From the NCBI RefSeq assembly GCF_014145675.1, contig NZ_JACGZW010000002.1, positions 62,001-126,000 on the forward strand: a DNA stretch of 64,000 nt. The letters run 5' to 3'. The DNA comes from Amycolatopsis dendrobii (lineage in GTDB: Bacteria > Actinomycetota > Actinomycetes > Mycobacteriales > Pseudonocardiaceae). The notes beneath the pieces were generated by a model, which was given only the letters and a program-made list of their open reading frames with translations, did not search any database and was not told where the DNA came from. Positions 29,930 through 33,028 of the stretch are shown here, piece by piece. The position numbers were made by a program, and so were the translations under genes. Each line of letters begins with the position of its first letter. The first letter of the stretch is position 1.

Positions 29930-30805
29930 ATGGAACTGCATCAGCTCGAGTACTTCGTCGCGGTCGCGGAGGAAGCCAACTTCACGCGCGCGGCGGCCCG
30001 GATGCACGTCGCGCAGCCCGGGGTCAGCGCGCAGATCCGGCGACTGGAACGGGAGCTGGGGCAGCCGCTGTTCGACCGGTCCGGGCGCACGGTACGGCTC
30101 ACCGGCGTCGGCGAGGCCGCGCTGCCGCACGCCCGGGCCGCGCTCGCGGCGGTGGCAGCGGTGCGCGAGACGGTCGCCGAGCACGAGGGGCTGGTGCGCG
30201 GGCAGGTGGCGATGGGGATGGTGACTTCTCTTGGACCGGTGGAGCTGCCGGAGTTCCTGGCCGGGTTCGCAGAGCGGTACCCGGGGGTGGAAATCACGCT
30301 CAGCGAAGCGAATTCCGATCTGATGATCGAGGCGTTGCGCGAGGGCCGGATGGACGTCGCGGTGATCGGCCTCGCCGACGGCGTGCCTGCCGGGCTGACC
30401 GCTCAGATCGTGCTCGACGAGGAGCTGGTCGCGGTCACCGCGCCGCGTGACGAATTCGCTGACCGTACTTCGCTCACCCTCGCCGACCTGGCCGAACGGT
30501 CGCTGATCTGCCTGCCGAAGGGCACCGGTATGCGGGGCGTGCTGGATCGCGGGTTCGCCGCGGCCGGGCTGCGTTCGCGGGTGACGATCGAGGCGAGCGA
30601 CCCGAACGTGCTGGCCAAGCTGGCGATGCGCGGCCTCGGGGTGGCGCTGGTCCCGCGATCGCTGGCCCGGTACTACGCCGGGGAACTGCACACCCTGCGG
30701 CTGCGGCCGGAACTGCGCGGGCAGCTGGCGCTGGCGTGGCGGTCCAACGGCCCGGCCGGGCCCGCGGCCCGGGCGCTCATCGAGTTTGCCCAGTCGGCGC
30801 TCTAG
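29930..30805 (+). CDS. LysR-family transcriptional regulator
   Basis: 291 residues. MELHQLEYFVAVAEEANFTRAAARMHVAQPGVSAQIRRLE is the classic N-terminal helix-turn-helix; the co-inducer domain starts near 90 (VAMGMVTSLGPVELPEFLAGF). The divergent FAD oxidoreductase is its expected target. It lies directly upstream of the atropopeptide-like genes in the same direction, but a hairpin (30849-30870) and 200 bp separate them, so a regulatory link to the peptide cluster is only possible. Confidence 0.9.
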   Translation: MELHQLEYFVAVAEEANFTRAAARMHVAQPGVSAQIRRLERELGQPLFDRSGRTVRLTGVGEAALPHARAALAAVAAVRETVAEHEGLVRGQVAMGMVTSLGPVELPEFLAGFAERYPGVEITLSEANSDLMIEALREGRMDVAVIGLADGVPAGLTAQIVLDEELVAVTAPRDEFADRTSLTLADLAERSLICLPKGTGMRGVLDRGFAAAGLRSRVTIEASDPNVLAKLAMRGLGVALVPRSLARYYAGELHTLRLRPELRGQLALAWRSNGPAGPAARALIEFAQSAL

Positions 30806-30848
30806 CGAGCGGCGAAGGATACCCACGCCGCCTCGGACTCGCCAAGGA

Positions 30849-30870
30849 ATTCGGGCCGGAATTCCCGAAT
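30849..30870 (+). terminator. Hairpin after the LysR gene
   Basis: Arms ATTCGGG (30849-30855) and CCCGAAT (30864-30870) with an 8-nt loop, 44 bp after the LysR stop. It would separate LysR transcription from the peptide cluster. The stem is short, so moderate support. Confidence 0.45.
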
Positions 30871-30926
30871 CGACGACCGGGAACTCCCGAACAGAACCGG
30901 TCGAGTGGGCCGTTCAGGTTGTCTTG

Positions 30927-30940
30927 CCGCGAATTCGCGG
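30927..30940 (+). promoter_or_regulatory. Perfect 14-bp palindrome in the peptide-cluster promoter region
   Basis: CCGCGAATTCGCGG lies 69 bp upstream of the precursor start codon. A -10-like TACTGT (30951-30956) follows 10 bp later, so the palindrome would sit over the -35 region. It is a candidate operator for the RiPP-like cluster. Confidence 0.45.
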
Positions 30941-31008
30941 AAATTCGTCGTACTGTCGGAATCGGCCGCGAGCGCGGTCGAAGTTCCGGAGAAGGCGGAG
31001 GTATTTCC

Positions 31009-31086
31009 GTGAAGCTTGTTCGTCTCGTGCGCAAGGCCCTTCCGGGCAAGAGTCTGAAGTCTTATGCCTGGTACGGCTGGATCTGA
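31009..31086 (+). CDS. Atropopeptide-like RiPP precursor peptide (25 residues)
   Basis: A 25-residue peptide from a GTG start with an excellent Shine-Dalgarno (GGAGG, 7 nt upstream). The first about 19 residues are basic (KLVRLVRKALPGKSLKSY) and act as leader; the end is AWYGWI followed directly by the stop codon. Tryptorubin A, the type atropopeptide, is made from a C-terminal AWYIWY core, so the Ala-Trp-Tyr-x-Trp-x pattern and the P450 gene 76 bp downstream point strongly to the same RiPP family. The P450 would cross-link Trp and Tyr side chains and a leader protease elsewhere would release the hexapeptide. Family assignment is from memory of the known core and layout, not a database search. 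Confidence 0.85.
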   Translation: MKLVRLVRKALPGKSLKSYAWYGWI

Positions 31087-31090
31087 CCGT

Positions 31091-31139
31091 CCCGTTAAAC
31101 GGGACCGGCCGGTTTCGGAATTCCCCGGAACCGGCCGGT
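31091..31139 (+). promoter_or_regulatory. Two hairpins between precursor and P450 genes
   Basis: CCCGTT-A-AACGGG (31091-31103) is followed at once by perfect 11-bp arms ACCGGCCGGTT (31104-31114) and AACCGGCCGGT (31129-31139) with a 14-nt loop. Lying between a RiPP precursor and its enzyme, they probably act as a partial terminator or mRNA stabiliser that gives more peptide than enzyme. Confidence 0.7.
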
Positions 31140-31162
31140 TTGCCGCTCAAGAGGAGTTGTGC

Positions 31163-32206
31163 GTGACCATTCCCGCTGAACGGAACAAAGTGCGGCAGGT
31201 GGTATTCGCGCCGCGGATTCAAGAACTGTTCGACCGTTATCGGGGGAAATCCTTCTTTCGGCTGGAACCGGACACTGTCGGCATCGCCGGGGCCGAGTTG
31301 ATGGACGCGCTGCTGCGCAGCAGGCCGCCGAACGCCGAGGAGCGGCCGACGTTCAAGCCGGTGCGCGGCCGGGTGGTCACGCGGCCGGAATCGTCGGCGC
31401 TGATGCGCGCGGTCGGCGCGGACGTGCGTGCCGCGCTCAAAAAGCCGCTCGGCGGGGCCGACCTCGCCGGGACATGGCCCGCCACGGCGCACAACTACCT
31501 GCGTGACCTGGTGTTCGGCCGCGAACAGCGGCGGTTCCGGGTTCTCGTCGACCGCCGGTTGGAGCTGACACCGAAGATCACCTGGGCGGCGGTCGCCACC
31601 GGAGCCGCGCTCTGGGGACGGCCCGCGCCCGAGGTCGCGCTGTCCACTTTGGCGCGGATGGTGCTGGAAGCGGACACCTACGACCAGCGCCGCTTCGCGA
31701 TGTACCTCTACCGGCGCGTGGCCGGTCCGGTCTGCTTCACCGTCGCCGCGCTGGTCACGAACGCCCTGTGGCTCAGTTCGCCGCTGGAGGACGACGTGCC
31801 GACCGAGTACGTGCTCAACGAGGCACTGCGCCTCCTGCCGCCGTCGTGGAACATCCTGCGCGTGCGTTCGCCGGAGTTCACCGAGGTGGACGCCCGGATC
31901 GGCACTGGCGACGACGTCCTGCTGCTGCCGCTGCTCAGCCACCGCGACCCCGAACTGTGGGACGCGCCCGACGAGTTCCGGCCGAGCCGCTGGGCCGCGC
32001 TCGACCCGGACACCCACCCCGGCTACTTCCCGTTCGGGCACAGCAACGAACGCTGCTGGGGACGGCACCTGGTGCTGCCGCTGGCGGAACGCGTCCTCGA
32101 CCTGGTCCGGCGCGACGGTCTGATCGTCGATCCGGCGCAAACGCGGGCCCGGGTGCACCTGGACGGGCTGCTGGAGGTTTCGGACGTGCGGGTCGTACGT
32201 GCCTGA
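31163..32206 (+). CDS. Cytochrome P450, atropopeptide-type tailoring enzyme
   Basis: 347 residues, shorter than the usual 400 because the N-terminal part is reduced. The K-helix ExxR is EALR (220-223). The haem loop is FGHSNERCWG (291-300), with Cys298 as ligand and Ser instead of the usual second Gly. The I-helix region reads RVAGPVCFTVAAL (185-197): AG is kept but the acid-Thr pair of ordinary P450s is missing. GTG start with GAGGAG 6 nt upstream. Directly behind the peptide gene, its likely job is radical C-C and C-N cross-linking of the Trp and Tyr residues in the core. Confidence 0.88.
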   Translation: MTIPAERNKVRQVVFAPRIQELFDRYRGKSFFRLEPDTVGIAGAELMDALLRSRPPNAEERPTFKPVRGRVVTRPESSALMRAVGADVRAALKKPLGGADLAGTWPATAHNYLRDLVFGREQRRFRVLVDRRLELTPKITWAAVATGAALWGRPAPEVALSTLARMVLEADTYDQRRFAMYLYRRVAGPVCFTVAALVTNALWLSSPLEDDVPTEYVLNEALRLLPPSWNILRVRSPEFTEVDARIGTGDDVLLLPLLSHRDPELWDAPDEFRPSRWAALDPDTHPGYFPFGHSNERCWGRHLVLPLAERVLDLVRRDGLIVDPAQTRARVHLDGLLEVSDVRVVRA

Positions 32207-32212
32207 GGGCTC

Positions 32213-32227
32213 TTGACAACGTGTCAA
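32213..32227 (+). promoter_or_regulatory. TTGACA-ACG-TGTCAA inverted repeat
   Basis: Perfect 6-bp arms around ACG, immediately after the P450 stop codon. It contains a -35-like TTGACA and may be an internal operator or a short hairpin ahead of the MpaB-like gene. No -10 was identified. Confidence 0.35.
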
Positions 32228-32248
32228 CGGAGGCGTTCCCCTGGACGG

Positions 32249-33028
32249 ATGCTCCAGGACGGCGTGCTCGGCGTCAGCCTGCTCGCGGGCGGCGCGAACG
32301 TGATCATGCAGCTGGGCCGGCCCGCGGTCGGGTACGGCGTGCTGGAAAGCCGGATCGACTCGGGGAATCTGTTCAAGCATCCGCTGAAACGCACGCGCAC
32401 CACCGTCACCTACCTCGCGGTCGCCGTGCTGGGCACCGACGCGGACCGGGCGGCGTACCGGCGAGCGGTGAATTCGGTGCACGCACACGTGGTCTCGACC
32501 GAGGCGAGTCCGGTGCGGTACCGGGCTTTCGACCGGGAGCTGCAGCTGTGGGTCGCCGCCTGTCTGGCCCATGGCGTCGAGGACGTGCATCGCGTGTTTC
32601 TCGGCCGGCCCGCTCCGGAATCGTGGTACGCCGAGGCCGCGGTGCTGGGCACGACGCTGCAGGTGCGTCCGGAAGACTGGCCGGAGGACTTCGCCGCGTA
32701 CTGGGCGGACGGACTGGCCCAAGTGGACATCGACGACCGGCTCCGCGAGTACCTCACCGCCATCGCGAATCTGGAATTCCTGCCGCGGCCATTCTCGTTC
32801 CTCTTCGGACGGTTCCACCGCTTCGTCACGACCGGCTTCCTGCCGGAAGTGTTCCGCGAGCAGATGCGGCTGCCGTGGTCGGCCGCGCAGCAGCGCCGGT
32901 TCGATCGGCTGATGCGCGGGATCGGCCGAATGGTCGAACCGCTTCCGGTGCGGGCGCGGCGTTTCCCTTATGACGCGTGCCTCGCGGACTTCCGGCGGCG
33001 GTTGCGGAAAGGAAAACCGCTCGTCTAA
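32249..33028 (+). CDS. MpaB/DUF2236-family oxygenase
   Basis: 259 residues. GVSLLAGGANVIMQLGRPAVGYGVLES, HPLKRTRTTVTYLAVAVLGTD, AFDRELQLWVAACLAHGVEDV and FVTTGFLPEVFREQMRLPWS are the DUF2236 landmarks, with the conserved histidines and arginines thought to bind haem b in this family (MpaB, latex-clearing protein). The start is uncertain: ATG 32249 has a GGAGG 15 nt upstream, too far. A different frame beginning GTG 32221 reads STEAFPWTDA, which may be a displaced N-terminus. It could be a second tailoring oxygenase of the peptide cluster or an unrelated neighbour. Confidence 0.82.
   Translation: MLQDGVLGVSLLAGGANVIMQLGRPAVGYGVLESRIDSGNLFKHPLKRTRTTVTYLAVAVLGTDADRAAYRRAVNSVHAHVVSTEASPVRYRAFDRELQLWVAACLAHGVEDVHRVFLGRPAPESWYAEAAVLGTTLQVRPEDWPEDFAAYWADGLAQVDIDDRLREYLTAIANLEFLPRPFSFLFGRFHRFVTTGFLPEVFREQMRLPWSAAQQRRFDRLMRGIGRMVEPLPVRARRFPYDACLADFRRRLRKGKPLV

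Follow-up and report, generated by a model that had tools for sequence, protein, structure and literature searches.

A predicted atropopeptide gene pair with the core AWYGWI in Amycolatopsis dendrobii and its relatives

The window, a 64,000-nucleotide stretch of the Amycolatopsis dendrobii genome (contig NZ_JACGZW010000002.1, positions 62,001 to 126,000), carries a short precursor gene followed by a cytochrome P450 gene (Table 1). The layout given in the original prediction was confirmed in the sequence: a tiny gene with a GGAGG site, a peptide ending in AWYGWI and a P450 gene 76 bp downstream. The precursor gene is 78 bases long, and seven bases separate its GGAGG from the GTG start at 31009. 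With the first residue read as M, positions 31009-31086 translate to VKLVRLVRKALPGKSLKSYAWYGWI, the stop following directly after AWYGWI. The P450, whose start lies 76 bases beyond the precursor stop, has both a heme-cysteine motif and an ExxR motif; Cys298 is presumably the heme ligand, as in P450s generally. A P450 search of the same genome gave one match at E ≤ 1e-50, and the DNA search and the precursor model gave one match each. No RiPP cross-linking P450 is named among the best 50 structural matches listed, a result that is uninformative either way. A LysR regulator gene lies upstream of the pair; the downstream neighbours are an MpaB/Lcp oxygenase gene and a LigD primase-polymerase gene.

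Table 1. Features of the precursor–P450 locus (coordinates within the window)
Feature	Coordinates	Strand	Basis
Ribosome-binding site of precursor gene, GGAGG	30997..31001	+	sequence
Precursor gene, 25 residues, GTG start, TGA stop	31009..31086	+	sequence; NCBIfam NF038372
Leader motif KSLK, residues 14-17	31048..31059	+	sequence; motif described in the accessible text of PMC11450843
Predicted core AWYGWI, residues 20-25	31066..31083	+	sequence; identical core in relatives
First spacer hairpin, 7 pairs	31089..31105	+	folding
Second, long spacer hairpin, 13 pairs (one G-U)	31106..31137	+	folding; recurrence; covariation
Ribosome-binding site of P450 gene, GAGGAG	31151..31156	+	sequence
Atropopeptide-type cytochrome P450, 347 residues, GTG start	31163..32206	+	Pfam PF00067; family trees; predicted P450 fold
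Codon of P450 Tyr181, in predicted long helix 173-205	31703..31705	+	residue pairs with kind of core residue 6
Codon of predicted heme-ligand Cys298 in FGHSNERCWG	32054..32056	+	C in 115/115 aligned relatives
MpaB/Lcp-type oxygenase, directly downstream of P450	32213-33028	+	PF09995

Atropopeptides are defined, in the accessible text of PMC11450843, by a class-defining P450, a KSLK motif in the leader and W at core position 2, and also by one or more P450-made cross-links anchored on Trp2. Residues 14-17 of the precursor read KSLK, where a near variant would also have served, and Trp stands at core position 2 (A-W-Y-G-W-I). The P450 beside the precursor is of the class-defining kind as judged by sequence kinship, sharing one family with the P450s of A. 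xylanica, S. clavuligerus, S. varsoviensis and Embleya. Against NF038372 (tryptorubin family RiPP precursor; curated cut-off 33) the peptide reaches 40.4 bits; a whole-genome search with the same model gave the precursor 37.7 bits and matched none of 14 control genomes. Because of the KSLK motif, the Trp at core position 2, the NF038372 score above cut-off and the kinship of the P450, the locus almost certainly belongs to the atropopeptide family, and the same four observations support the atropopeptide-type RiPP locus that had been proposed. Having W at core positions 2 and 5 behind a KSLK leader, the peptide also matches the 'bitryptide' subgroup, described as an xWxxWx core with a KSLK leader (PMC11450843, accessible text). 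The gene pair adds another member to the known atropopeptides and is not a new kind. Two other assignments were rejected: biarylitides have a five-residue precursor (PMC13417212, as far as its available text goes) rather than one of 25 residues, and the model for the aminopyruvatide P450 ApyO (NCBIfam NF050147) matched at 70.9 bits over residues 215-325 only, against a cut-off of 525.

The pairing of peptide and P450 recurs widely. A scan for precursors of this build found one within 400 bases upstream of 114 of 120 distinct related P450 genes. Applied to both strands of whole loci, the scan yielded just two further matches, in L003 and L006, each on the minus strand. With a peptide upstream of 114 of the 120, the pairing is more than chance. 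As an extraction control, two Embleya plasmids yielded TWFIWYS, matching the published ScaA core from another Embleya. Of the 120 genes, 33 are paired with AWYGWI, five with a different core that has Gly4 and 76 with cores of other kinds; for six none was found, namely the broken A. echigonensis locus, L134 and L091-L094. These last four lie in Streptomyces-genus genomes and encode P450s 35-37% identical to that of the window, with no precursor of the same build found upstream. Across 20 Amycolatopsis precursors, chosen for AWYGWI with none dropped, the leader residues are kept and their codons vary, mostly silently; AWYGWI is identical down to the codons, the constancy of the core itself following from the choice of sequences. 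Short frames are common in G+C-rich DNA, but the idea that this one arose by chance next to an unrelated P450 is already refuted by the conserved peptide–P450 pairs, the NF038372 match and the silent leader changes, and we find it scarcely conceivable. An absence of homologous pairs from other genomes had been named as the result that would speak against the locus call; such pairs are common, and the call was not refuted. The companion claim that gene finders usually miss a 78-bp gene held only in part: a curated NCBI model exists, so the gene need not be missed, and one S. clavuligerus plasmid table, itself known to be incomplete, does list no gene at the precursor.

Within the genus, the P450 was found in 25 of 80 Amycolatopsis genomes, A. 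dendrobii included (E ≤ 1e-50), and 55 had none at that threshold. The nearest named loci, with P450s 92-95% identical, are those of A. rubida, A. circi, A. nivea, A. echigonensis and a strain filed as A. orientalis. Twenty of the 25 genomes encode AWYGWI, and AWYNWI, AWYQWI, AWYLWI and AWYIWW occur once each. The remaining genome is that of A. echigonensis (L005, the same record as L016), where TGA replaces the first core Trp codon and the P450 frame is open. Given this stop codon in the core, the pathway is dispensable in A. echigonensis, and one might suspect that the A. dendrobii pair, though intact, is likewise decaying or silent and no longer used. Such disuse is very improbable here, where peptide and P450 are both intact, the identical core persists in those 20 genomes and the leader changes are mostly silent. 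One of the 25 genomes (G070) has a second, distant P450 (L035), 39% identical to that of the window; the peptide 35 bases upstream of it ends in TWIHWS, has KSMR in place of KSLK, and may represent a divergent branch.

Beyond the genus, the P450 occurs in at least 47 of 392 genomes of Streptomyces (genus g28; E ≤ 1e-60), at least 11 of 297 of the window's own family (own genome included; E ≤ 1e-60), at least 39 of 249 of the family to which Streptomyces belongs (E ≤ 1e-100) and at least three of 394 in a class-level draw (own genome included; E ≤ 1e-50). These draws overlap, and the counts are lower bounds because scoring was confined to the few best candidates in each genome. A Nocardia P450 query of 249 genomes of the order returned only the window's own locus at E ≤ 1e-80; named Nocardia proteins nonetheless appear among the P450 relatives in a search of protein collections. 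AWYGWI itself is encoded outside Amycolatopsis at six Streptomyces loci (L038-L043) and six Kitasatospora-like loci (L098-L102, L104), the latter label (for g194) resting on the seven nearest g194 loci, whose P450s share 84-90% identity with a named Kitasatospora protein.

Conservation of the surroundings is narrower. The close Amycolatopsis relatives share one gene order, apart from L018, where the oxygenase is missing next to the pair; in more distant relatives, the flanks examined, most of them 1.5 kb or less, contained none of the four neighbours tested. Since LysR, MpaB and LigD turned up next to the pair in these close relatives only, precursor and P450 are, on this comparison of sequences, what stays together. 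The MpaB/Lcp-type oxygenase (PF09995) follows close behind the P450 on the same strand and could be imagined as a third cluster enzyme that further oxidises the bridged peptide. Its absence beside the pair in L018, and from the mostly short flanks examined in the more distant relatives, makes this improbable.

Phylogenies place the P450 next to enzymes of a known producer. The full tree of 120 rows contains a 39-row clade (SH-aLRT 100) that holds 36 Gly4 cores. A 68-row tree, built from 66 hand-chosen rows of the 120 and two S. varsoviensis proteins (P0094, P0113), groups 41 P450s in one clade with support 100/100. A Gly4 core accompanies 36 of these; the other five are those with AWYNWI and AWYRWV, the broken A. 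echigonensis locus and the two S. varsoviensis proteins. The P450 of the window thus lies in the clade of the varsorubin producer's P450s. Gly4 also occurs outside the clade, as AWYGWY (L071) and AWYGWD (L074), and the Gly4 label changes six times on the full tree and seven times on the 68-row tree. AWYGWI had been presented as a novelty; it proved instead to be the usual core of a clade that spans Amycolatopsis, Streptomyces and Kitasatospora-like genomes. Searches of the main text of papers found none for AWYGWI or WYGWI, and one insect-peptide paper only for AWYGWL/WYGWL; figures and supplements fall outside such a search, and the AtropoFinder files may well list the core.

Among characterised systems, the varsorubins (sva, Streptomyces varsoviensis) are close, sharing the P450 clade, W2, Y3, W5 and an aliphatic residue 6; their core is SWYQWL (PMC11450843, accessible text) rather than AWYGWI, and the S. 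varsoviensis P450s have Phe at position 181, where the window has Tyr. Tryptorubin A/B (AWYIWY) shares the A-W-Y-x-W frame, the KSLK leader and the single P450, but here Gly replaces Ile at position 4 and Ile replaces Tyr at position 6, and all rows with the tryptorubin core fall outside the window's P450 clade on both trees. Amyxirubin/clavorubin, from Amycolatopsis xylanica and S. clavuligerus, resembles the locus in gene layout and, for A. xylanica, in genus; it differs in its core, AWYIWW as read from the sequence, and in its P450s, 57% (A. xylanica) and 56% (S. clavuligerus) identical to that of the window. The A. xylanica P450 (P0125) is, but for its first residues, identical to the L034 P450. 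AWYIWW forms the end of the L034 precursor and is also encoded on the S. clavuligerus plasmid (L095), which fits the statement that clavorubins are another name for amyxirubins (PMC11450843, accessible text). The sequences indicate that the window's core differs from that of amyxirubin. Scabrirubin (Embleya scabrispora, TWFIWYS) shares the KSLK leader and WxxW; it has one C-N bond only, according to the accessible part of PMC11450843, and the Embleya P450s with that core belong to another clade. The kitasatides 1019/1017 (named in the available part of PMC12299652) were rejected as products of such a core, their masses appearing to correspond to SAWYFWY after loss of 2 H and 4 H rather than to AWYGWI. 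Among 323 genomes, the S. tsukubensis P450 (P0114) found its best match at 71% identity.

Taken with these relatives, the locus is probably a minimal, two-gene cluster of the bitryptide type, whose P450 joins Trp2, Tyr3 and Trp5 of AWYGWI in the three-bond pattern. The P450 would bind the leader through the KSLK motif and then oxidatively join the three side chains. By analogy with characterised members, the two Trp would be joined by a C-C bond and Trp2 to Tyr3 by a C-N bond, and Trp5 would close a ring onto a backbone nitrogen, for a net loss of 4 H. General host proteases would release the hexapeptide, or WYGWI after loss of Ala; the ring would enclose Gly4 and exclude Ile6. Most characterised members carry three such bridges, according to the accessible text of PMC11450843. 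The same text gives varsorubin B1 (from SWYQWL) as WYQWL minus 4 H with three bonds, namely one C-C bond between the Trp residues and two C-N bonds, from Trp to Tyr and from Trp to the backbone, and laurentirubin B as WYIWY minus 6 H with four. Our calculations reproduced both masses. The original expectation of 2 H lost per cross-link therefore does not agree with these compounds, in which three bonds cost 4 H and four cost 6 H. The two replacements in the core had been expected to give a differently shaped bridged hexapeptide; of these, the one from Tyr to Ile should leave the bridges as they are, since residue 6 is not part of the bicyclic system in known members (PMC11450843, accessible text).

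The sequence cannot tell how many bonds are formed, since a single core yields three-bond as well as one-bond products with SvaB, and ScaB forms only one C-N bond (both from the available part of PMC11450843). These same precedents, and the flexible loop that Gly4 may provide, speak for a product with only one Trp2-Trp5 bond, of the scabrirubin or varsorubin B2a type, that is, a monocycle minus 2 H. Against this stands Tyr3, the second side-chain bond partner, which is found in all 24 intact precursors of the genus by a scan that did not require it. A P450 of the same clade also makes the three-bond form, if SvaB is one of the S. varsoviensis proteins compared here; it could be either of the two. 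We consider the monocycle somewhat unlikely and favour the three-bond bicycle. As to whether such an enzyme would accept Gly4, ScaB tolerates many changes between the two Trp; Gly is not among the substitutions listed at the equivalent place in the accessible text of PMC12352619, and a WEGY core is accepted. The predicted [M+H]+ of the minus-4-H product is 791.351 for the hexapeptide and 720.314 for the pentapeptide; for a minus-2-H monocycle the values would be 793.367 and 722.330. AWYGWI minus 4 H and varsorubin B1 have the same m/z, 791.3511, because Ala plus Gly equals Gln in mass and Ile equals Leu, so mass alone cannot identify the product.

Two strong hairpins fill the spacer between the genes (31087-31162), which folds at -43.9 kcal/mol (z -4.86), with none of 200 shuffles as good. 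Among the 39 spacers that precede a P450 with 67% identity or more to that of the window, 25 contain a perfect stem of at least 9 pairs, as do 42 of 112 across the family; shuffled means are about 4 to 6.5 pairs. By this measure the spacer in the window counts just 7 pairs (p 0.07) because its long stem contains a G-T pair. A long G+C-rich stem of differing sequence recurs in many relatives. In a set of nine close spacers, 97.4% of cells form the 13-pair helix, and two of its pairs are changed on both sides, a result equalled by 10 to 20 of 500 shuffles; covariation lends the helix moderate support. We infer that the long hairpin may set the peptide-to-enzyme ratio, keeping the precursor above the enzyme. 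Neither a T-tailed terminator nor a sigma-70-like promoter was found in 30780-31200, and Rfam gave no match up to E 1 in 30700-32500. A narrow literature search, itself weak evidence, found no described hairpin in such clusters.

One position of the P450 tracks the end of the core. In 39 of the 40 rows with an aliphatic core residue 6 (Ile, Leu or Val), position 181 is Tyr or Phe, the exception being L033 (AWYLWI) with Gly; where residue 6 is Tyr, Trp or Phe, position 181 is Gly in all 72. The single row with Asp at residue 6 also has Gly, four rows offer no core to compare, and both S. varsoviensis proteins have Phe. The pattern is mostly that of one clade. L032 (AWYQWI, Phe181) lies outside it, and on the 68-row tree the pairing therefore arose at least twice. 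A sign test on 71 rows, with 43 left out, found three independent pairs (two the same way, none opposite, one with no difference; p 0.5), too few for significance. Three named Xanthomonas P450s have Gly at 181, and Pseudomonadota cores such as WALYISY have Ile at the sixth place (PMC12352619, accessible text); such cores may break the rule.

It is possible, though we propose it tentatively, that the AWYGW(I/L/V) clade records a natural specificity switch, in which, at least twice, the aromatic residue 6 was lost and an aromatic residue (Tyr or Phe) gained at P450 position 181 to fill the same space. The clade's product would then be a still undescribed Gly-containing bicycle, with the conserved hairpin setting the ratio of peptide to enzyme.

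In this analysis, a large and conserved set of gene pairs from Amycolatopsis, Streptomyces and Kitasatospora-like genomes, whose usual core is AWYGWI, comes to stand next to the varsorubin-producer enzymes. The analysis also states the mass to expect from this core, together with the reason why mass alone would mislead. If the position-181 pattern holds, it would offer a one-residue handle on the peptides accepted by macrocyclising P450s, which matters for making bridged peptides with these enzymes.
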